Source: a virus
Reading direction: 5' to 3' (one strand)
Virus record (IMG/VR): IMGVR_UViG_3300049783_000650
Location: 1 to 29,890 of that record
Length of the DNA stretch: 29,890 nucleotides
In this document: piece after piece, positions 1,795-19,466 of the stretch
Layout of the letters: every line of letters begins with the position of its first letter
How positions within the stretch are numbered: position 1 is the first letter of the stretch
The notes under the pieces: model-generated
Seen by the model: the letters and a program-made list of their open reading frames with translations, nothing else
What the model was told of the DNA's origin: nothing
Databases searched by the model: none
Translations under genes and position numbers: made by a program

Positions 1795-2648
1795 TTGCAT
1801 TAATTGATGGAGACCCTCTAGTTTACCAAGCTTATTGGCATGTTAAACGAACTTATGAAGCATATCTAAAAAAGCTTAAGAAGCGTTTCACTGATGGTGA
1901 GATTGATGAAGAACACTATGATAGACAGCTTGTCTTAGCTGAGAAATCTTTTGATAAAAATGGTTTTGCTAAAGCTAAGATTAACATGGACATGCTGTTA
2001 GAAAACATTCTAAATGAGTTGTTTGTTGATGAGTATGCTATTGCTGTTGGTGGTGTTGGTAATTACCGACTTGATATTCACCCTGAGTATAAGGCTTCAA
2101 AGACACGGGCGGCTGTTCGAAGTAGTAAACCTGTATGGTTTGATGATCTAAAGGATTACCTTGCAGCCAAAGAGGAGTCTATCTCAACAGATGGTTATGA
2201 AGCAGATGATTTGCTACGAATTTGGTCTAATGACTGTAAACGCACTGACACTGACTACATCATTTGTTCAATTGACAAAGACCTAGATTGTATTGATGGA
2301 AAACACTACATCAACATTCACCCAACAAAACCTAAACACCAGTATGAGATTGCAGCAGAGTACGCTGAGTGGTTCTATTGGTATCAAGTACTTATGGGGG
2401 ATAATGTTGACGCAATACCGGGTCTTAAAGGCTGCGGACCAAAAACAGCAGCTAAAATCCTAGAAGACTACTCAACACGCGAAGGCTACATAGAGGCTAC
2501 TTGCAAAGCTTACTTTAAGGTTTATGGGCTAGAAGAGGGCTACGAGCACCTTCTTTTTAACGGTAAACTAATACATATCCTACCCGCTTTTGGCGAGCAC
2601 TTTTCTATTAAAAGGAGTGTGTACGATGAATTTGTCTTATCTGTATGA
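1791..2648 (+). CDS. 5'-3' exonuclease / flap endonuclease (T7 gp6-like, FEN family)
   Basis: A 285-residue PIN/FEN-family nuclease that removes RNA primers or degrades DNA ends for recombination and precursor recycling. Acidic metal-binding residues appear in the expected order: D6 and D8 (LIDGDPL), the E137-A-D-D140 cluster (GYEADD), D162 and D164 (SIDKD), and D204/D207 in the helix-3-turn-helix DNA-binding segment LMGDNVDAIPGLKGCGPKT (202-220). The length is close to T7 gp6 (about 300). Its start overlaps the previous stop. Its 3' end overlaps the homing endonuclease start by 23 bases. It is the first recognisable replication gene of this unit. Confidence 0.93.
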   Translation: MIALIDGDPLVYQAYWHVKRTYEAYLKKLKKRFTDGEIDEEHYDRQLVLAEKSFDKNGFAKAKINMDMLLENILNELFVDEYAIAVGGVGNYRLDIHPEYKASKTRAAVRSSKPVWFDDLKDYLAAKEESISTDGYEADDLLRIWSNDCKRTDTDYIICSIDKDLDCIDGKHYINIHPTKPKHQYEIAAEYAEWFYWYQVLMGDNVDAIPGLKGCGPKTAAKILEDYSTREGYIEATCKAYFKVYGLEEGYEHLLFNGKLIHILPAFGEHFSIKRSVYDEFVLSV

Positions 2649-3390
2649 AGTCATGGCTAACACCGAGACCTCAGACAGTTTAGGCCATTGGCAAGTACCT
2701 CCTGCTCTATCTCATATTAAACCAAAACAAACACACGGATTTGTTTACTGTATTGAAAGCTTGAAAACAGGACATCTGTACCTTGGAAGAAAGCAAACTG
2801 TTCACGGGGGAAAGAAGTCTAGTAAGCTGTATGGAAAAGAAACCCCTTGGCGAACTTATAGAGGTAGCAGTAAAAACTTAAAAGCACTTATGATTAAGGA
2901 AGGTGCCGAATCTTTCTTATTTCACATACTCGAATATTTTTATACGCGTGGCGGACTAAACGCAGCAGAAATTGAGTGGCAAGTTAAGTGTGACTGTTTG
3001 ACCGCTAAAATGGAGGGAACAGAAGATCGCCTCTTTCTTAACGGACAAATAGCAGCAATGAGGTGGGTGCCAAAAGAGTTTCACACAGATGAGACAAGGC
3101 GTAAAATGAGAGAGTCCCACGCTAAAAATATTGACCATGGAAACTGGCATGTTGGGAAGCCAGCGAGAAACCCTAAAAACAGGGATAATTTAGTTCCCGG
3201 AGGTCTTGACCCAAAATACTGGGGACCCAACAAAAAAGCCGTTATAGTAACGAAAGGTGAAGAACAACACATTTTTAATGATTCAAAATCAGCAGCTAGG
3301 TTCATAGGTTGTGCACATGACTCTGTAGCAAGAGTTTGTAGAGGAGAAAAGAAAACGATTTATGGCTGGAGGGCTACATGGCACGAATAG
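2626..3390 (+). CDS. GIY-YIG-like free-standing homing endonuclease
   Basis: A 254-residue protein of the Seg-like phage homing endonuclease type. The N-terminal nuclease region has GFVYCIES (38-45) and LYLGRKQ (51-57) as a diverged GIY-YIG pair, then WRTYRGSSKNLKALM, and E115-I-E-W, where the family has a catalytic Glu. A basic middle part (HTDETRRKMRESHAK) resembles NUMOD3-type repeats, and the end (SKSAARFIGCAHDSVARVCRG) fits a NUMOD1/IENR1 DNA-binding helix-turn-helix. I chose ATG 2626 because AAGGAG lies nine bases upstream; an upstream in-frame start at 2590 has no such site. It overlaps both neighbours, which is unusual for a mobile gene and implies precise insertion. Confidence 0.82.
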   Translation: MNLSYLYEVMANTETSDSLGHWQVPPALSHIKPKQTHGFVYCIESLKTGHLYLGRKQTVHGGKKSSKLYGKETPWRTYRGSSKNLKALMIKEGAESFLFHILEYFYTRGGLNAAEIEWQVKCDCLTAKMEGTEDRLFLNGQIAAMRWVPKEFHTDETRRKMRESHAKNIDHGNWHVGKPARNPKNRDNLVPGGLDPKYWGPNKKAVIVTKGEEQHIFNDSKSAARFIGCAHDSVARVCRGEKKTIYGWRATWHE

Positions 3391-9318: not shown

Positions 9319-9554
9319 ACCTACCAATGGAATACCCACTACCAATGAAAACCAAGTACGTTGATGAGGAAACCACTGCCACAAACCGTTGGATGATCTT
9401 TGGAGAGTATGGTGACCTCGCCGATAACGTGGATATCAGTGATGGTACCCAAGACATTATCACCCATATCCCTCGGTGGAGGGCAGAGATTATCATTGAG
9501 GCAAGAAATGTCTTTGTTAATATCCTCTTAGAGCTTGGGCAACCATTTACATAA
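9315..9554 (+). CDS. hypothetical protein
   Basis: A 79-residue protein starting at ATG 9315, overlapping the previous stop; AGGAG at 9301-9305 serves it. It contains NRWMIFGEYGDLADNV and IPRWRAEIIIEARNVFVNIL. It is the last gene before promoter copy 2, whose first bases overlap its stop codon. No family is recognised. Confidence 0.7.
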   Translation: MNLPMEYPLPMKTKYVDEETTATNRWMIFGEYGDLADNVDISDGTQDIITHIPRWRAEIIIEARNVFVNILLELGQPFT

Positions 9555-9571
9555 ATACTGCCGACTAATGA
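9553..9571 (+). promoter_or_regulatory. putative phage RNA polymerase promoter, copy 2
   Basis: AAATACTGCCGACTAATGA, identical to copies at 1513 and 21130. Upstream context TTTACAT resembles TTTACAA of copy 3. The predicted +1 G is 9570, giving a 40-base leader before the gene at 9610. It opens the unit carrying the tRNA-like element, RNA-repair genes and NAD genes. Confidence 0.75.
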
Positions 9572-9609
9572 CTAATTAATTTATTTACAAATATGAAAAG
9601 AGAAATAAC

Positions 9610-9840
9610 ATGACAACTAATAACACAACTTCACCATCCACTGGCGGCATCGGCTTCTTCGGCCTACTCACTGTGCTGTTTATCGGACTTAAACTGGGCG
9701 GCGTAATTGCTTGGTCTTGGTGGTGGGTTCTGGCTCCTTTGTGGCTTCCTATCTCAATCTTCCTTGGTATCCTCCTTGTTGGTTTTATTGTGGCTGGCGC
9801 TGTAGTAGGTGTTGCCTCACTATTTAGCAAAAAACTGTAA
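9610..9840 (+). CDS. small integral membrane protein, 'transmembrane Fragile-X-F' type
   Basis: A 76-residue hydrophobic protein with two or three membrane segments: about 14-33 (GFFGLLTVLFIGLKLGG), an aromatic stretch SWWWVLAPLWLPISIF, and about 52-70. The KLGGVIxWSWWWVLAPLW pattern matches small phage and bacterial proteins that databases label transmembrane Fragile-X-F protein; that name carries no proven function. It is the first gene of its unit, immediately after promoter copy 2, so it may be strongly expressed. A role in the host membrane, such as superinfection exclusion, is possible but not shown. Confidence 0.8.
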   Translation: MTTNNTTSPSTGGIGFFGLLTVLFIGLKLGGVIAWSWWWVLAPLWLPISIFLGILLVGFIVAGAVVGVASLFSKKL

Positions 9841-9851
9841 AATAAACACTG

Positions 9852-9924
9852 CTACAAGTAGCTCAAGAACAAAGAGCACTCCACTGATAAAGGAGAGGTT
9901 GCAGGTTAAATCCTGCCTTGTAGC
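9852..9924 (+). tRNA. tRNA-Ile(GAU)-like cloverleaf, atypical D and T loops
   Basis: A full cloverleaf can be drawn. Acceptor CTACAAG (9852-9858) pairs with CTTGTAG (9917-9923), extendable by G9851-C9924. The D stem is GCTC/GAGC (9861-9864 and 9874-9877). The anticodon stem is CTCCA/AGGAG with one A-A mismatch and seven-base loop CTGATAA, anticodon GAT at 9886-9888 with T33 and A37 equivalents. The T stem is GCAGG/CCTGC (9901-9905, 9912-9916). The D loop AAGAACAAA lacks the GG pair, and the T loop TTAAAT has six bases, missing the C that normally pairs with that G. No CCA is encoded. It may be a functional odd tRNA, a decaying one or a tRNA mimic. Confidence 0.6.
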
Positions 9925-9982
9925 TATAATAACGAGAAAATGAGTGCATCTATAATAGAGAAATCTAAACAAAGGAAAGCAA

Positions 9983-10210
9983 ATGGTTGATCGACCAAAC
10001 TGCCACAAATGTAAATGGTCTAAGCAGAGTATTTTTAATTCTGGAACACATCACAGAAGCTGCCACTTAAAAGTAAAAGACACCGAACTACTTCCTGAAA
10101 TTGAGTTTAGCAAACACGGTGTCTGCTCAGGATGGTGCTCTTGGCCTTACGACTTTGATCCAATTTGGATTGATAAGTGTACTGCTTTTGAAGAGGGGGT
10201 AACACCATGA
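9983..10210 (+). CDS. cysteine-rich putative zinc-binding protein
   Basis: A 75-residue protein with cysteines at 7, 10, 27, 48, 52 and 66 and nearby histidines (GTHHRSC), followed by GWCSWPYDFDPIWIDKC. I recall the pattern CxxC, then GxxHxxC, then WPxxFDPxW from a widespread unnamed family of phage proteins. It is probably a zinc-stabilised small domain. AAGGAAAG precedes ATG 9983. The stop overlaps the kinase start (ATGA). Confidence 0.8.
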   Translation: MVDRPNCHKCKWSKQSIFNSGTHHRSCHLKVKDTELLPEIEFSKHGVCSGWCSWPYDFDPIWIDKCTAFEEGVTP

Positions 10211-10635
10211 TTAACGACATAGACAACGCGCCAGTACTTTGCATTGTTCGTGGAATTCCCGGATCAGGTAAATCCACTTTTGTACAAAATACTAAGCTTG
10301 AATGCATGCACCTTGAGGCTGACATGCTTTGTGTCAAGACTGCTTCTTACCAATGGAAAGGTGAGAACGTCAAGGCAAACCACGAAACTTGTTTTGAGAT
10401 TGCTAAGTTGGTTTTCTCTCGTGGTGCTGACCTGTGTATCTCTAACACTTTTACTCAAAAATGGGAGTTTGCCCACTATGTTTACTTGGCCAAATCCCTT
10501 GGCTACTATGTAGAAGTTTATCGCATGGACAATGACTTTGGTAACACACACAATGTACCGGAAGAAATCGTCCAAAAAATGAAAGCTCGTTTTGAAGATT
10601 ATGAAGGAGAAACTATTGTCAAACTTCAAGAATGA
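10207..10635 (+). CDS. P-loop kinase, polynucleotide-kinase-like
   Basis: A 142-residue ATPase/kinase domain with Walker A GIPGSGKST (16-24) preceded by strand LCIVR, then EADM at the position where AAA_33/N4BP2-type kinases have an acidic residue, CISNTFTQKWEF (the N-T-F segment typical of that family) and a C-terminal VYRMDNDFGNTHNVPEE. The family includes the 5'-kinase domain of T4 polynucleotide kinase and of bacterial Pnkp. Together with the metallophosphoesterase and RNA ligase that follow, it would prepare 5'-OH RNA ends for sealing. Substrate is inferred from context; kinases of this fold can have other targets. It overlaps the next gene. Confidence 0.83.
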   Translation: MINDIDNAPVLCIVRGIPGSGKSTFVQNTKLECMHLEADMLCVKTASYQWKGENVKANHETCFEIAKLVFSRGADLCISNTFTQKWEFAHYVYLAKSLGYYVEVYRMDNDFGNTHNVPEEIVQKMKARFEDYEGETIVKLQE

Positions 10636-11155
10636 CATCTGGTTTATTTCAGATACACACTTTCAACACAACAAGATTTTGGAATATTCATCCTCTCGAA
10701 AGGCTGCTTTCAATAACACAAAGCAGATGGACGAGATACTGATTGAAAACTGGAACAGCTTAATCAAGCCAGAAGATAAAGTTTATCACCTTGGTGATGT
10801 CACCTTTGGTAGCCGTAAGAGCTATGCTGAAGACATACACCCACGGTTAAATGGTAAGAAACGACTTATTGTAGGTAACCATGATGACATCCGTTTCTTT
10901 GAGCAACACAGGCTGTTCCAAAAGATTATGTTGTGGCGTGTGTGGGATGATCCAAACTACCCCTTCCTGTTCACCCACGTACCTGTTGATGTGAGTTGTA
11001 TCAATGAGCGTCTGGTTGTGAACAACGGGATTAACGTTCATGGCCACATTCACGATCAGGAGTCACCAACCGATAAGCACTTCTGTGTATGCGTTGAGCA
11101 GACTAATTTCAGGCCAATGCACATTGAAGAAATAAAACAAAGGACAAACGTATAA
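10616..11155 (+). CDS. calcineurin-like metallophosphoesterase
   Basis: A 179-residue two-metal phosphoesterase. All family motifs are present: D13-T-H15, G60-D61, G87-N88-H89-D90, H121 (FTHVP) and G143-H144-I-H146. I prefer TTG 10616, six bases after AAGGAG, giving MSNFKNDIWFISDTHF; ATG 10601 in the same frame is the alternative, and both lie within the end of the kinase gene. In bacterial Pnkp a domain of this family removes 2',3'-cyclic phosphate and 3'-phosphate from cut RNA, and I infer that job here from the flanking kinase and ligase. Other small phage phosphoesterases act on different esters. Confidence 0.87.
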   Translation: MSNFKNDIWFISDTHFQHNKILEYSSSRKAAFNNTKQMDEILIENWNSLIKPEDKVYHLGDVTFGSRKSYAEDIHPRLNGKKRLIVGNHDDIRFFEQHRLFQKIMLWRVWDDPNYPFLFTHVPVDVSCINERLVVNNGINVHGHIHDQESPTDKHFCVCVEQTNFRPMHIEEIKQRTNV

Positions 11156-11508
11156 TGAACACCAAAGGTATCGTACTTGGAAGTAAAGTAAGAATTATTA
11201 CAAATAAAAGTGGATCCTTAAATGGAAGAAATTTTGTAGGTTTTGTAACAGAAGTTGACACAGATAATACAGTCCGTGTTAGCAAAATTAAGGGTGTTAA
11301 TGAGGAAAAAAGTAACTGGTCAAAATACGAAGAACTAGAACTTGTCAATAACAAAGCAGAAGTTACTTCAATGTCAGATGGATGGAGAGTAGAAGTTAAC
11401 AACAAGTTTTATAGCTGGCACCATAACGAACCTGACTTGGGCATTTCTGCTTTAAAAGATATGCTAATTGAGCTAGGCTTTGAAACAAATGTTATTGAGG
11501 AATATTGA
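11155..11508 (+). CDS. hypothetical protein with KOW/SH3-like N terminus
   Basis: A 117-residue protein between the phosphoesterase and the RNA ligase, overlapping the first at TAATG and ending two bases before the ligase. The N-terminal GIVLGSKVRIITNKSGSLNGRNFVGFVTEV and NTVRVSKI look like an SH3-like barrel of the KOW kind. The C-terminal half (DGWRVEVNNKFYSWHHNEPD then a helix) is a separate small domain. Two other genes (12665, 19107) start with similar VGDxVxx segments. A nucleic-acid-binding helper for RNA repair is possible but unproven. Confidence 0.75.
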   Translation: MNTKGIVLGSKVRIITNKSGSLNGRNFVGFVTEVDTDNTVRVSKIKGVNEEKSNWSKYEELELVNNKAEVTSMSDGWRVEVNNKFYSWHHNEPDLGISALKDMLIELGFETNVIEEY

Positions 11509-11510
11509 TA

Positions 11511-12428
11511 ATGAAATATATTAGTTTTATGTCTCTGGTAAGAGCAAACAAGTCAGAAGTCCAAGGTATTGAGGTAGGCACTTGCTACGTTTTCCCAAAG
11601 CTGGATGGTACAAATGCCTCTATCTTCTGGGATGAAGAAAACCAGACACTCGGTGCAGGTTCTCGTCGCCGGAAGCTCTCAGAGGGTTCTGATAATGCAG
11701 GTTTCTTCAATCACATGAAGGCTCACCCAACAGCTAAAGAACTAGTCATGAGCTTCCCTACTTGGAATATCTATGGTGAGTGGCTTGTCCCTCATTCGTT
11801 GAAAACCTACCGTGAAGAGTCTTGGCGTCAGTTCTATATCTTTGACGTGTGGGATCAAGACAAAAATCGCTACCTGACCTACGATGAATACAAAGGCTCA
11901 CTTCAGCCAATCCTTGATTCTGTACCTTGCTCAGACATGCGTATTATCCCACCGATGGCTATTGTTACAAACGGAGACTACACTCGATTTGAGCGATGCG
12001 CCGAAGAGAACACTTACCAGATTGAAGACGGTAAGGGTTGTGGTGAAGGTGTTGTTATCAAGAACTATGAGTTTGTAAACCAATTTGGGACTACCCCGTT
12101 TGCTAAGCTTGTCACTAACTTGTTCAAGGAAGCCAATGCTGAAGCCTTCGGACCTAAAGAAATCAAGGACGAAATGATTGAGCAGTTGATTGCTGAGAAA
12201 TACACAACAGCAGCTCGTGTAGAGAAGATCAAGCTCAAGATCGAGGAAGAAGTTGGTCCTTGGAATAGTAAGTTGATTCCACGTCTGATTAACACAACCT
12301 TCCATGACATTATCACAGAAGAAATGTGGGAAATCCTGAAAGACAACAAGAAGCCAACTATTAACTTTGGTTTGCTTCATCGCTATGTGATCATCAGTAT
12401 CAAGGCTGTTCAGCCGGAGTTGTTTTAA
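11511..12428 (+). CDS. RNA ligase, Rnl2-type
   Basis: A 305-residue ATP-dependent nucleotidyltransferase that seals 3'-OH and 5'-phosphate RNA ends. Motif I is K30-L-D-G-T-N35 with K30 the AMP-accepting lysine. YGEWL (88-92), FYIFDV (108-113), EGVVIK (179-184) and FAKLV (197-201) correspond to motifs III, IIIa, IV and V. The order and spacing fit T4 Rnl2 relatives, and the length suits catalytic plus C-terminal domain. I start at ATG 11511 with GAGG ten bases upstream; TTG 11505 is possible. With the kinase and phosphoesterase it makes a complete healing and sealing set. Confidence 0.92.
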   Translation: MKYISFMSLVRANKSEVQGIEVGTCYVFPKLDGTNASIFWDEENQTLGAGSRRRKLSEGSDNAGFFNHMKAHPTAKELVMSFPTWNIYGEWLVPHSLKTYREESWRQFYIFDVWDQDKNRYLTYDEYKGSLQPILDSVPCSDMRIIPPMAIVTNGDYTRFERCAEENTYQIEDGKGCGEGVVIKNYEFVNQFGTTPFAKLVTNLFKEANAEAFGPKEIKDEMIEQLIAEKYTTAARVEKIKLKIEEEVGPWNSKLIPRLINTTFHDIITEEMWEILKDNKKPTINFGLLHRYVIISIKAVQPELF

Positions 12429-13337: not shown

Positions 13338-13784
13338 ATGCAGCACAACATTGTAATCTTTTCGATTGACAACGGCGAAAACCCAAATACAGCTTTGCTA
13401 TTTGAATCAAGTTTTAACAACCACCCAAAACGTTCTAGTAACTTGATCCATGCAGAGGGTAGTTATGAGGGTACACCAGAGAAGTCCTACATCTGTAACC
13501 GTAAAGACTTTAACGAAATTGTTGTAGACTGGGGTTGGGTAAACAATCAGCACTGTGTCCTTGGGGTAACTTCCTGCAACAAAGCTTATGCCCAACTTGA
13601 GTATGTTAGTGGGGACATTAAGCAGATTGGCTGTATGCACTCTGTAACCAAAGAGGAAGCCTTAAGCTCACTTGAGTATACTTATAGACCTGACCTAGAT
13701 CTTTATTGGGTTGCAAAGGTGGGCAACCCGGATAACTCTTTCCAAGAAAGTAAAGCTCGTGCTGATATGGGCTTCTACATTTAA
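13338..13784 (+). CDS. hypothetical protein
   Basis: A 148-residue soluble protein, AAAGGA upstream of ATG 13338. Segments such as ICNRKDFNEIVVDWGWVNN and YTYRPDLDLYWVAKVGN suggest a mixed alpha/beta fold. There is no metal-binding, P-loop or membrane signature. It is not recognised. It stands alone between short gaps in the accessory unit. Confidence 0.72.
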   Translation: MQHNIVIFSIDNGENPNTALLFESSFNNHPKRSSNLIHAEGSYEGTPEKSYICNRKDFNEIVVDWGWVNNQHCVLGVTSCNKAYAQLEYVSGDIKQIGCMHSVTKEEALSSLEYTYRPDLDLYWVAKVGNPDNSFQESKARADMGFYI

Positions 13785-14725: not shown

Positions 14726-14753
14726 ATATCAAACCCACATGATTGGAAAAACA

Positions 14754-16097
14754 ATGACTGACTTCAACCTAATGTACGCTGCTGACTTCTATAAAGTGTC
14801 TCACAAGGCACAGTACCCTGATAACGTTACTAAGGTACACTCAGTACTTGTTGCTCGTGGTGCCAACTACAACGACAATATTTCTAAAGAGGAGTTCCAA
14901 TGGTTTGGTTATTCCTTGTTTATTGATAAGCTTCAAACTTGGTCAGGAGAATTTTTTGCGACACCTTACCGCCACATTGTTGATGTGGATCTTAAAGAGT
15001 ATAAGCAGTTTCTTGACACACGTCTTGGTGGGGATAACGATGTATCGCACTGGGCCGCTCTACACTCTGTTGGACACCTCCCAATCACTATCTGTGCTGT
15101 ACCTGAAAAGACTATTGCTAAGTTCCAAACACCCTTGTTAACTATTGAAAACACAGACAATCGTTTTGCTTGGTTGCCAGCCTTCATTGAGACAAGTATG
15201 TTGGCAAACGTCTGGGGTGTAACAACTGCAGCTAACCGTTCTTGGCACATTCGTAAATCTATTGAAGCAAAGATGGTTGGTTACTCTGAGGAAGAACTTG
15301 CTGCTATTGACTTCATGGGACACGACTTCTCTTACCGTGGTTTGATGGGTGATGAAGCTGCAGCTATGGTTGGTTGTGGTCACCTTGCTAACTTCAAAGG
15401 CTCTGACACTATTCCAGCTATCCGTAAGATGGAGCAGGTTTATGGTGAGATTACTGGCTTCTCTGTCCCTGCTACTGAACACTCTGTTATGTGTGCGGGT
15501 GGTCAGAATACCGAAGAAGAAACCTACTCAAGGATCCTTGACATTTATCCCTCTGGTATTGTTTCGATTGTATCAGACACTTGGGATTACTTCAAGGTCC
15601 TTACTGAAACACTCCCTTCCATGAAAGATCGTATCATGGCTCGTGAAGGTAAAGTTGTTATTCGTCCTGACTCAGGTGACCCTGTTGAGATCATTTGTGG
15701 GGTTGCTTATATTCCAAATCACAAGCCAACAGATGCAGAAAAAGGTTCACTCCGTATCCTTGATGAGGTCTTTGGTCACACCCTTGACTCAGCCGGACTC
15801 AAGGTTCTTGACTCACACATCGGTCTGATCTACGGTGATGGTATGAATCAAGAGCGTATTATCACTATGCTTGACACTATGATCGAACGGGGCTACTCAC
15901 CTCTTAACCTTGTCTTTGGTATCGGTGCCTACACCTACCAGCTTACTACCCGTGATGAGTTGGGTTTCGCCTTTAAAGCTACTGCCGTTGAGATTGAGGG
16001 TGAGTGGGTAAACATTCAGAAAGACCCTAAAACAGACCAAAGTAAGAAATCTCTTACCGGACGTTTTGTTGGGGGTGATCTTAAAGAGGTATTTTAA
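14754..16097 (+). CDS. nadV: nicotinamide phosphoribosyltransferase homolog (NAMPT/NadV; possible Namat)
   Basis: A 447-residue type II phosphoribosyltransferase. NAMPT makes NMN from nicotinamide and PRPP; the relative Namat of the phage NARP1 pathway instead makes NAD directly from nicotinamide and ADPR-pyrophosphate. Key human NAMPT residues have counterparts: DFYKVSH (11-17; Y18 region), HDFSYRG (190-196), NFKGSDT with D218 (human D219), the catalytic histidine in SVPATEHS, H243 (human H247), RPDSGDP (304-310; human R311/D313), YGDG (360-363; human D354) and KKSLTGRF near the end. I chose ATG 14754, which aligns with NAMPT N termini; ATG 14739 has no ribosome-binding site. Its Prs-like partner lies 142 bases downstream. 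Confidence 0.93.
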   Translation: MTDFNLMYAADFYKVSHKAQYPDNVTKVHSVLVARGANYNDNISKEEFQWFGYSLFIDKLQTWSGEFFATPYRHIVDVDLKEYKQFLDTRLGGDNDVSHWAALHSVGHLPITICAVPEKTIAKFQTPLLTIENTDNRFAWLPAFIETSMLANVWGVTTAANRSWHIRKSIEAKMVGYSEEELAAIDFMGHDFSYRGLMGDEAAAMVGCGHLANFKGSDTIPAIRKMEQVYGEITGFSVPATEHSVMCAGGQNTEEETYSRILDIYPSGIVSIVSDTWDYFKVLTETLPSMKDRIMAREGKVVIRPDSGDPVEIICGVAYIPNHKPTDAEKGSLRILDEVFGHTLDSAGLKVLDSHIGLIYGDGMNQERIITMLDTMIERGYSPLNLVFGIGAYTYQLTTRDELGFAFKATAVEIEGEWVNIQKDPKTDQSKKSLTGRFVGGDLKEVF

Positions 16098-16100
16098 TAT

Positions 16101-16238
16101 ATGGGTATACTGTGTCCCTACTGCGGTAAAGACCAAGATAGTAAAACCCAAGTGCGTTTTGCAGGGCTACGTTGGCACCTCCAATGTTGGCGACCTTGGC
16201 TAGAATATGAGTTAAATGAAGCAAAGAAGGAAACATGA
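16101..16238 (+). CDS. 45-residue zinc-ribbon-like protein
   Basis: A short gene between the NAMPT homolog and the Prs-like gene, starting three bases after the first stop and ending one base before the second start. It begins MGILCPYCGKDQDSK and has C5, C8, H26 and C29, a plausible C2HC zinc site. The placement strongly suggests co-expression with the NAD pair. It is also similar in form to tiny zinc-finger proteins scattered through phage genomes, so a functional link to NAD metabolism is only a guess. Confidence 0.7.
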   Translation: MGILCPYCGKDQDSKTQVRFAGLRWHLQCWRPWLEYELNEAKKET

Positions 16239-16239
16239 T

Positions 16240-16932
16240 ATGATGAAGACTTTTAATTACTACAAGCGCGGTAAGGGTGAACTTAACACCGAGAACTTCC
16301 TTGATTTGGCCTTTCAACGCGAAATTCACGTTCGCCAACTGGATAGTAAAACCTTTGTGTCACTAATGGCCCTCCAACTATACAAAAGCCAAAGCTCGCG
16401 GTGTGCTGCCCGAAAACAGACAGTCTATGTAGAAGGTTATGTAGACCACATGAGAGGAGATAAGGATAAGTTCCCTGTAAGTACTATTTACTCTTATCTT
16501 CACTCTTTCGATATTGTCTGCCTCTCTATCCAGCATGAGAGCACAGGCTATATCAAATCAGATACCCTTACCAAGAAAGAAATCCTTGGAGACTTGCCTA
16601 CCGTAAATACTGACAGCGTTCTTTTTATTGGAGCAGATAGCTCTGTGCCTAAATTCTTTCCTCAGGTTGATGGGTTTGCAACTAAAGTACGAAAGGATGG
16701 GAAGGTCACTAGTCTTTCCTTTGACACAGATCTTGACCTAGACGTGTATGATATTGTTATTGTTGATGACCTGATTGGTGGTGGTGCCACTGTTCAGATG
16801 CTTGTTGACATCCTTGAGGATAACGGCTTTGGAGGGGATATCTCCCTTTGGGTTCGGTACAACGAGGGTATCCATAAGCCAGAGTTCTTGCGATCTAACT
16901 TTAATGATTGGTACATTGGCGACGAAGTTTAA
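16240..16932 (+). CDS. PRPP-synthetase-like protein (Prs family; possible Adps)
   Basis: A 230-residue protein of the ribose-phosphate pyrophosphokinase superfamily. The PRPP-binding loop is clear: IVIVDDLIGGGATV (172-185), compare VLVDDMIDTGGT in E. coli Prs. Other segments line up in order: FVSLMALQLYKSQSSRCAAR with the LMELVVMVDALRRA helix, EGYVDHMRGDKDKFP with the GYARQDR loop, SIQHES with DLHAEQ, and VLFIGADSSVPKF with VVSPDIGG. It is shorter than Prs (about 315), lacking most of the first strands and the last part. ATG 16240 follows AAGGA. Beside an NAMPT homolog it could supply PRPP, or ADPR-pyrophosphate as Adps does in NARP1. Confidence 0.82.
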   Translation: MMKTFNYYKRGKGELNTENFLDLAFQREIHVRQLDSKTFVSLMALQLYKSQSSRCAARKQTVYVEGYVDHMRGDKDKFPVSTIYSYLHSFDIVCLSIQHESTGYIKSDTLTKKEILGDLPTVNTDSVLFIGADSSVPKFFPQVDGFATKVRKDGKVTSLSFDTDLDLDVYDIVIVDDLIGGGATVQMLVDILEDNGFGGDISLWVRYNEGIHKPEFLRSNFNDWYIGDEV

Positions 16933-17068: not shown

Positions 17069-17216
17069 GGAATGGTTTGACAATAACAAAGAAGACATAG
17101 TAAGTAATTGTGAAAATCGTATGGACGAGTACGATGCTAGGGACTGGCTTGAAGCTGCCTTTGCCGCCGGTTGGAATGACTCAAATAAACACTCAGGGAG
17201 AGAAACTGGTGAGTAA
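17058..17216 (+). CDS. 52-residue hypothetical protein
   Basis: It starts at ATG 17058 within the end of the membrane peptide gene; the open frame extends upstream but that part is the shadow of the neighbour. It begins MTFEEWFDNNKEDIV and continues WLEAAFAAGWNDSN. The MTFEEWF start and the A-AGW motif are familiar from tiny unannotated phage proteins. It overlaps the next start (17209). Confidence 0.65.
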   Translation: MTFEEWFDNNKEDIVSNCENRMDEYDARDWLEAAFAAGWNDSNKHSGRETGE

Positions 17217-17529
17217 GTGTGTAGTTGTTTTAGGTGAGGGTGTTAATAAACCCTCACTTGTAATGGCTAGGCTAATAAGGCAAATGGAAGCTAGTGATGT
17301 CGAGGTAGAGTTTATAGAAGTAAGTGACACTATTTACGGCAAGACTTTTGATAGTGTAATCGTTGATGACTTGGAAGGTATAAAAAAAATGAAACAACAG
17401 AAACTTGAGAAACAACTGGCTGATATCAAGAAACTTTGTAAGTTATCAGCTAAGTACTGGCCAAGTATGGACTTCCTTGCTGAAGCAATACTAGAAACCT
17501 ATGAAAATAAAGATAAGGAAACTACATGA
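17209..17529 (+). CDS. hypothetical protein, GTG start
   Basis: A 106-residue protein. I take GTG 17209 as the start because AGGGAG lies just upstream and the protein then begins MSKCVVVLGEGVNKPS; the ATG at 17110 in the same frame lies wholly inside the previous gene. It has an alpha/beta start (VVVLGEGV, VEVEFIEVS, SVIVDDL) and a Lys-rich coiled middle (KKMKQQKLEKQLADIKKL). The function is unknown. It overlaps the next start (ATGA). Confidence 0.65.
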   Translation: MSKCVVVLGEGVNKPSLVMARLIRQMEASDVEVEFIEVSDTIYGKTFDSVIVDDLEGIKKMKQQKLEKQLADIKKLCKLSAKYWPSMDFLAEAILETYENKDKETT

Positions 17530-17885: not shown

Positions 17886-18422
17886 ATGACTAATAAAAAC
17901 AAAGTAAAGCTGCACGTAGGCTATGTTGGTATCACCCGTAATGGAAAACGTATGGAGATTGATAGTAGTAACTATGACCCAGAATACCCATTTAAGTCAG
18001 GGTTCTACACCTATCGTAGAAATGGAGATTACTGGAGTAGGAGTACTCGTATATCCAACCTTGACATTATGGGTCCTTGGGTAGAAAAGGTAAAAGAAGA
18101 AGAAGAAGAAACTGGTAACTACAATGACGGTAACTGGCACCGCTGGCATGGTGGAGAACGCCCTGTTCATAAAAAAACTGAAGTCGAAACTATTTTGGCC
18201 TTTAACAACCAACCTGTTAAAGGCCTAGCGGAGGTCTTTAGCTGGAATCACGATATGGACCCAATCCTTACCTTCCGTGTGGATAAAGAGTATGTTGAAC
18301 CAGTTAAGCCGCAAGAATTTTGGGTTAGTAATAACGATGGTTATGCACACGATAGCTTAGAAAGTGTGCTAGAAGATCCCTTTACTGAAAAGTATGGCTA
18401 TACACATGTAAGAGAGGTATGA
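17886..18422 (+). CDS. hypothetical protein
   Basis: A 178-residue protein with AGGAG upstream of ATG 17886. The first 70 residues read as beta sheet (LHVGYVGITRNGKRMEI, GFYTYRRNGDYWS), followed by an acidic and His/Trp-rich linker (KEEEEETGNYNDGNWHRWHG) and a C-terminal part with YVEPVKPQEFWVSNNDGYAH. Not recognised. The N-terminal pattern (user-visible sheet with GITRNGK) occurs in other unannotated phage proteins I recall only vaguely. Confidence 0.7.
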   Translation: MTNKNKVKLHVGYVGITRNGKRMEIDSSNYDPEYPFKSGFYTYRRNGDYWSRSTRISNLDIMGPWVEKVKEEEEETGNYNDGNWHRWHGGERPVHKKTEVETILAFNNQPVKGLAEVFSWNHDMDPILTFRVDKEYVEPVKPQEFWVSNNDGYAHDSLESVLEDPFTEKYGYTHVREV

Positions 18423-19043: not shown

Positions 19044-19106
19044 TAAATTCTAAACTCTTTGCTACAACAACTTTCTTAACATAACTCATATATGGAGAAT
19101 AAAACA

Positions 19107-19466
19107 ATGCCAAATAAATTTAAAGTAGGCGATGTAGTCGTAGGTAACAAATTACATATTTCCCGTAAACGTCATGGTATGTCAGGAAAAATAGCCTCTG
19201 AAGGAAACGGCGGCTACTTTGTTTTGTGGGCTAGCGAAGTTGAGCCATTACTTGCTTTTGCCAGAGAACTTTATAAGTCTCCAAGATTTAAGGTTGGGGA
19301 AGAGCACGAGGAGCAACTTGACAAGGAGTACAAGGAAGAGTTTGGAGTAACCTACTCACAACACCTAGAGATTGGCAGACTCACTAGGGAGATCAGCACC
19401 TATGTCTCCATAGAAGATAAACGTAAGCGACTATTCTACCTTAGATCACTTCTTAAAAAGGAATAA
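19107..19466 (+). CDS. KOW/SH3-like small protein
   Basis: A 119-residue protein started at ATG 19107 with GGAGA nine bases upstream; ATG 19092 overlaps that site and has none of its own. The N terminus FKVGDVVVGNKLHISRKRHG with GGYFVLWASEVEPL resembles an SH3-like barrel. The C-terminal half is a charged helical hairpin (HEEQLDKEYKEEFG, then a Lys/Arg-rich end RKRLFYLRSLLKKE). Similar openings occur in the genes at 11155 and 12665. The function is unknown. Confidence 0.72.
   Translation: MPNKFKVGDVVVGNKLHISRKRHGMSGKIASEGNGGYFVLWASEVEPLLAFARELYKSPRFKVGEEHEEQLDKEYKEEFGVTYSQHLEIGRLTREISTYVSIEDKRKRLFYLRSLLKKE

Follow-up and report, generated by a model that had tools for sequence, protein, structure and literature searches.

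A kinase, a metallophosphoesterase and an RNA ligase encoded together in a phage genome: a probable distributed module for RNA repair

We analysed a window of 29,890 bases, the full length of the IMG/VR virus record IMGVR_UViG_3300049783_000650, and a gene cluster within it that encodes in turn, on the plus strand at 10207-12428, a P-loop kinase of 142 amino acids (aa), a metallophosphoesterase (MPE), an open reading frame (ORF) of 117 aa and an RNA ligase of 305 aa. In our judgement it is likely that this cluster is a distributed RNA healing-and-sealing module, directed against RNA-cutting defences and assembled in this phage lineage independently of the large kinase-MPE-Rnl1 group seen in myovirus-like phages, as well as of bacterial Pnkp. 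What we observed, and build upon, is the gene content of the cluster, its intact motifs, the fold relatives of its proteins, the selection acting on them, their recurrent linkage and their natural fusions. The window also encodes a T7-like primase-helicase and exonuclease, a ribonucleotide reductase, a terminase and tail genes, and a DNA-level search in the phage records found no near relative. An earlier note on this DNA had named the three enzymes by their motifs (GIPGSGKST; DTH, GNHD and GHIH; KLDGTN), and a check of the sequence recovered all of these genes and motifs on the plus strand. The kinase and MPE genes overlap by 20-35 nt and the MPE gene and the 117-aa ORF (ORF117) by 1 nt, a 2-nt gap separates ORF117 from the ligase, and no excess of promoters or terminators was found inside the cluster.

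The kinase (10207-10635) is a 5'-polynucleotide-kinase-like P-loop protein of the N4BP2/T4-PNK type, without a HAD phosphatase domain. It matches Pfam AAA_33 (1.5e-11) and phrog_2071 (1.9e-26) and carries its P-loop, GIPGSGKST, at 10252-10278, where, in 59 relatives, R15, G16 and G19-K22 never vary and P18 and T24 hardly do. As a single-sequence query of the PDB it returned nothing useful, and matches came only with a profile of the 59 phage relatives. T4 PNK then stood at the top (1.7e-6), and the lower ranks included PSTK among others, mammalian PNKP (1.7e-5) and the CthPnkp kinase (5.5e-5). The AlphaFold model of the kinase (pLDDT 86) superposes on the CthPnkp kinase with a TM of 0.77 and also resembles mammalian PNKP; its top fold matches are PSTK structures.

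The MPE (10601-11155) is of the aq_1665/COG4186 type and matches phrog_547 (5.9e-46). Its frame opens at TTG 10592, and better starts are ATG 10601 or TTG 10616, the latter preceded six bases upstream by AAGGAG, a better Shine-Dalgarno spacing than that of ATG 10601. The protein carries the motif set DTH (10652-10660), GD, GNHD (10874-10885), H and HGHIH (11039-11053), all on the plus strand. Across 59 relatives, D18, H20, D66, N93, H94, H126, H149 and H151 are invariant, as are the glycines G92 and G148, and D95 and H147 are kept in at least 90%. The metal-ligand pattern of the calcineurin-like fold is well established, and the invariant residues of the MPE fit the metal ligands of such enzymes. 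Its sole strong solved relative is Aquifex aq_1665 (PDB 1xm7; sequence profile 6.9e-30, fold TM 0.72), which is the best fold match of the structure model (pLDDT 94).

The third enzyme is an ATP-dependent RNA ligase (11511-12428) that matches PF09414 (6.2e-19, 69.2 bits against a gathering cut-off of 27) and phrog_548 (4e-42). The frame is open from TTG 11505, and ATG 11511 agrees better with its relatives. The motifs KLDGTN, GEW, EGVVIK and AK are intact, and the catalytic residues K30, E90, E179, K184 and K199 are invariant in eight relatives. The nearest solved protein, the Naegleria RNA ligase, is a weak match of the PDB profile search (6.4e-5).

Eight other IMG/VR contigs, hereafter the clade, retain the kinase-MPE-x-ligase order. 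The lowest identities in the clade are 58% for the kinase, 67% for the MPE and 63% for the ligase, and while the kinase-MPE-x-ligase arrangement stays, both the flanks and gene x, which separates the MPE from the ligase, vary. In one member (L104, contig IMGVR_UViG_3300006920_000045, 9980-10566) the MPE is spread over two overlapping frames, by frameshift or assembly error. In close pairs of relatives, dN/dS is 0.19-0.25 for the kinase, 0.12-0.19 for the MPE and 0.05-0.07 for the ligase. Because these values are low for all three genes, the genes have been kept functional: all are under purifying selection.

The association extends beyond the clade. We gathered 62 non-redundant kinase-anchored loci outside it and took as controls 72 ligase-anchored loci, which differ from a random sample of genomes; an MPE lies within 10 kb of the kinase in 26 of the former and within that distance in 2 of the latter (Fisher p ~1e-8), a large difference even with such controls. 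The MPE is within 150 bp of the kinase in 13 of the 62 loci and overlaps it in 12. An ATP-dependent RNA ligase is found in 14, and kinase, MPE and RNA ligase occur together in 12. The search with a T4-like PNK-HAD profile was restricted to one round because iteration drifted into all P-loop kinases.

Pfam and PHROGs further identify two natural fusions. In one (L138) MPE and kinase form a single protein of 362 aa with the MPE first; the contig is 230 kb long, the size of a jumbo phage, and the fusion lies at 9353-10441. In the other (L180) the kinase is fused to Rnl1 in a protein of 430 aa, right after an MPE. Another locus (L089) holds an independent cluster of overlapping MPE, ligase and kinase genes. 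Among isolates, phage NoPa has an MPE, then Rnl1, kinase and ribose-phosphate pyrophosphokinase in succession and, further on, NAMPT, and in the V5-like phage navn Rnl1 diverges from a kinase-MPE pair. The view of the earlier note that the three enzymes are functionally associated is borne out by the linkage and these fusions, and it remains sensible to read the 3'-end enzyme next to a T4-PNK-like kinase and an RNA ligase as calcineurin-like rather than HAD-type.

How did these sets arise? In an MPE tree of 63 rows, whose sampling was partly kinase-anchored, we count nine changes between kinase-linked and unlinked states, and the starred branches force four or more of these. NoPa and navn fall in a starred clade of 15 MPEs, 14 of which are kinase-linked. 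The MPE of the window lies outside it; its neighbours in the tree are kinase-free, among them the MPE of the Zobellviridae phage KZY1. Because the tree places it among kinase-free phage MPEs, the set in the window is best read as a separate assembly, put together from different branches and with a different ligase family.

The following account of what the three enzymes do, of their substrate and of a role in counter-defence is our inference. The substrate would be an RNA cut so that one side of the break carries a 2',3'-cyclic phosphate (or a 3'- or 2'-phosphate) and the other a 5'-OH. The MPE would open the cyclic phosphate and remove the phosphate from the 3' end, the PNK-type kinase would phosphorylate the 5'-OH, and the PF09414 ligase would join the 3'-OH to the 5'-phosphate with ATP. 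The likely purpose would be to mend tRNAs, or RNAs of other kinds, after cleavage by the ribonucleases of host abortive infection; the substrate is probably a tRNA cut by a defence ribonuclease, and the module may serve to counter anticodon nucleases.

The earlier note went further and saw in the cluster a bacterial Pnkp split into genes that follow its domain order, which would make the three genes derivatives or orthologues of the Pnkp domains. The three predicted activities do match, so does the order within the clade, and the kinase is akin to that of Pnkp at the level of the superfamily only. Yet, when our profiles were set against one such protein, the 879-aa bacterial Pnkp of a Blastopirellula metagenome-assembled genome (MAG), only the kinase gave a clear match (37.8 bits); the MPE scored 4.3 and the ligase -2.0, and at sequence level these two are not homologous to the corresponding domains of Pnkp. 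The PNKP_ligase model PF16542 has no match in the window, the Pnkp phosphatase is of the DIHG type against DTH..HGHIH here, and three separate ORFs stand where Pnkp has a single polypeptide. The order of the genes is scrambled in relatives: with P for the MPE, K for the kinase and L for the ligase, the twelve triples outside the clade comprise five P-K-L, two K-P-L, two K-L-P, two L-P-K and one P-L-K. Because the order varies in this way, the Pnkp-like order of the window is no more than what a chance of one in six would give, and the sole natural MPE-kinase fusion has the MPE first. Since the MPE also groups with kinase-free phage MPEs, descent from Pnkp is an explanation to which we give hardly any weight.

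Several observations weigh against RNA repair as such. Among loci with relatives of the ligase (~45% identity), 67 of 80 have no partner within 10 kb; in the 39 longer records of this kind the MPE occurs in 2 and a kinase-profile match at E<=0.001 in 5 (2 of them strong), and the complete genome of Cellulophaga phage phi19:3 carries a relative of the ligase and neither kinase nor MPE. Similarly, 75 of 96 MPE-anchored loci have neither a scanned RNA-repair partner nor NAMPT nearby. Because most ligase- and MPE-anchored loci carry no partner, each of these two can do without the other members, and a strong tie to the set is seen for the kinase alone. The earlier note would have taken close relatives that are metabolic enzymes found without an RNA ligase as evidence against its reading, and this is in part what we see: the nearest relatives of the MPE are phage genes free of kinase and ligase, and the chromosomal genes nearest to the kinase in sequence (Vibrio, Thalassospira, Methylococcales) have no RNA ligase or MPE next to them, with three exceptions (one MAG contig with MPE-kinase, one kinase-MPE-Rnl1, and one weak ligase match 7 kb away). 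A kinase-MPE-Rnl1 cluster stands in a Bacteriovoracales MAG (L304, 7458-10037); it may be a prophage, or else belong to a phage contig that was binned into the MAG. One might then suppose that unrelated genes merely happen to adjoin here, the phosphoesterase and the ATPase being of a generic kind and the third an RNA ligase, all the more as their families are common in phages (1504 records with the MPE, 554 with the kinase and 268 with the ligase, out of 50,697). But the linkage is enriched, genes overlap, the set recurs with two different families of ligase and two fusions exist; chance fits poorly with all this, and we hold it to be very unlikely. Also unfavourable to RNA repair, PSTK, a tRNA-seryl kinase, matches the fold of the kinase model equally well, and the lid arginine of T4 PNK, which we take to be R126, is not conserved in the family, where an invariant His lies nearby instead (59 relatives). 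Both points would suit a PSTK-like tRNA-directed kinase opposed by the MPE as phosphatase, i.e. a switch of tRNA modification instead of repair. This seems to us far-fetched, given that T4 PNK comes first by sequence profile and that the kinase is recurrently linked to RNA ligases and once fused to Rnl1. Finally, the solved relatives of the MPE have no known RNA substrate, 1xm7 being uncharacterised. Kinase and MPE could instead process nucleotide or NAD-derived metabolites (e.g. ADP-ribose phosphates) along with the NAD and nucleotide genes of the phage, with the ligase working separately. A NAMPT-type gene (14739-16097; PRK09198, 444 bits; phrog_448) does lie 2-4 kb downstream of the cluster together with the next gene (16216-16932), a weak PRPP-synthetase/PRTase-like match. 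The NoPa kinase adjoins ribose-phosphate pyrophosphokinase and NAMPT, the gene after the L138 fusion (10477-11583) reads by inspection as an NMN-adenylyltransferase/Nudix-like protein, and Iyer and colleagues (2022) allow for calcineurin-like enzymes acting on ADPr>P (PMC9503650). However, NAMPT is present in only 5 of 79 kinase loci, the best annotated matches of the kinase profile are polynucleotide kinases, and the kinase-Rnl1 fusion and the MPE, ligase and kinase overlaps in L089 point to RNA ends. We regard a role in metabolite processing as unlikely and retain the RNA-repair module as the better account of the cluster.

On balance, we lean towards a more general proposal: that MPEs of the phrog_547 type are the hitherto unassigned 3'-end healing enzymes of the many phages whose PNK-type kinase lacks a phosphatase domain, and that a kinase and an MPE were joined, repeatedly and independently and sometimes by fusion, with a ligase from one of at least two families, in what would be a third architecture of RNA healing beside those of T4 (kinase-HAD) and bacterial Pnkp. 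Phages facing RNA-cutting defences such as PrrC, RloC, PARIS, Cas13a or retrons would be expected to require every step of a repair path. Many nonetheless encode a kinase and a ligase without a recognised 3'-phosphatase, as in the Pakpunavirus Adele, whose kinase "lacks 3'-phosphatase domain" and for which tRNA repair with RNA ligases was proposed (PMC12846349). Calcineurin-like enzymes have been proposed in phage RNA repair by Iyer and colleagues (PMC7824862, PMC9503650), and the V5 gene neighbourhood has been described with a proposal of cut-tRNA repair (PMC9503650). RNA repair by similar phage clusters is hence already in print; what we add is the MPE as a systematic candidate for the 3'-phosphatase step, with the fusions and the repeated assembly. 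One defined family of small MPEs is marked out for this role by its linkage, by gene overlap and fusions, and by having been assembled repeatedly and independently. The missing step thereby becomes directly testable, and a family present in ~1,500 sequenced phage records would gain a function.

Other genes lie within or around the cluster. ORF117 (11155-11508, plus strand), of unknown function, stands between MPE and ligase and is variable and outside the conserved core; it was rejected as a fourth component, being replaced, shortened or absent in relatives, and it has no Pfam, PHROG or NCBIfam match that would justify its earlier label of SH3-like. A 75-aa ORF of unknown function (9983-10210, plus strand), without Pfam or PHROG match, overlaps the start of the kinase by 4 nt in the same transcription unit. 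Just upstream, ARAGORN predicts a tRNA-Ile (GAT) at 9851-9925 on the plus strand, rejected as a component since it is present in only one of the clade contigs scanned. Among the scanned proteins of the window we identified no Hen1-like gene, and a PADLOC run returned nothing meaningful. The NAMPT-type gene and its neighbour at 16216-16932 are a possible pair for rebuilding NAD+. The window NAMPT is 27% identical to that of NoPa; an assignment of the pair to NARP1 was tested and not borne out, the 16216-16932 product bearing no meaningful resemblance to the second enzyme of NoPa (E 0.73). The gene at 13338-13784, near the repair cluster, encodes an S-adenosylmethionine-lyase-like protein (PF23780, 3.2e-6, just below the curated cut-off) and is a possible anti-restriction candidate. 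A SegE-type GIY-YIG homing endonuclease (2590-3390; PF19835, 8.9e-21) is inserted between exonuclease and primase-helicase, and its PHROG name, NAD synthetase, looks mislabelled. Downstream of the NAMPT gene, small fast-changing genes of unknown family (17110-17529, 17886-18422, 19092-19466 and neighbours) are shuffled or missing between close relatives.

Comparison with known systems places the cluster among several partial likenesses. T4 Pnkp, in which the kinase is fused to a HAD phosphatase, and Rnl1 likewise pair a PNK-type kinase with an RNA ligase in a phage, and the proposed pathway logic is identical; here, however, the kinase is a lone domain of 142 aa, a calcineurin-like protein encoded apart from it is the phosphatase candidate, and the ligase is of another family. 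The closest solved relatives of the MPE, Aquifex aq_1665 (1xm7) and the MJ0936 phosphodiesterase (1s3l), are cellular stand-alone proteins for which no RNA-end activity is known from these entries. Bacterial Pnkp-Hen1 shares the kinase, metallophosphoesterase and ligase activities (predicted here) in matching order, but there they sit on a single chain whose phosphatase is of the DIHG type and whose ligase is PF16542, and the system depends on Hen1. In the Pnkp1-Rnl-Hen1 system of Capnocytophaga gingivalis the ligase is a separate gene, as in the window, whereas Pnkp1 is a T4-type kinase-HAD fusion and the ligase needs Hen1 (PMC4411300). The clusters of the V5-like navn and the Pakpunavirus-like NoPa, of the kind described for phage Adele, share with the window a phrog_2071 kinase, an MPE of the broad phrog_547 family and an ATP-dependent RNA ligase, as well as NAMPT in NoPa; they differ in having a T4-Rnl1-type ligase and an MPE of the starred clade, where the ligase of the window is of PF09414 and its MPE comes from a different branch.

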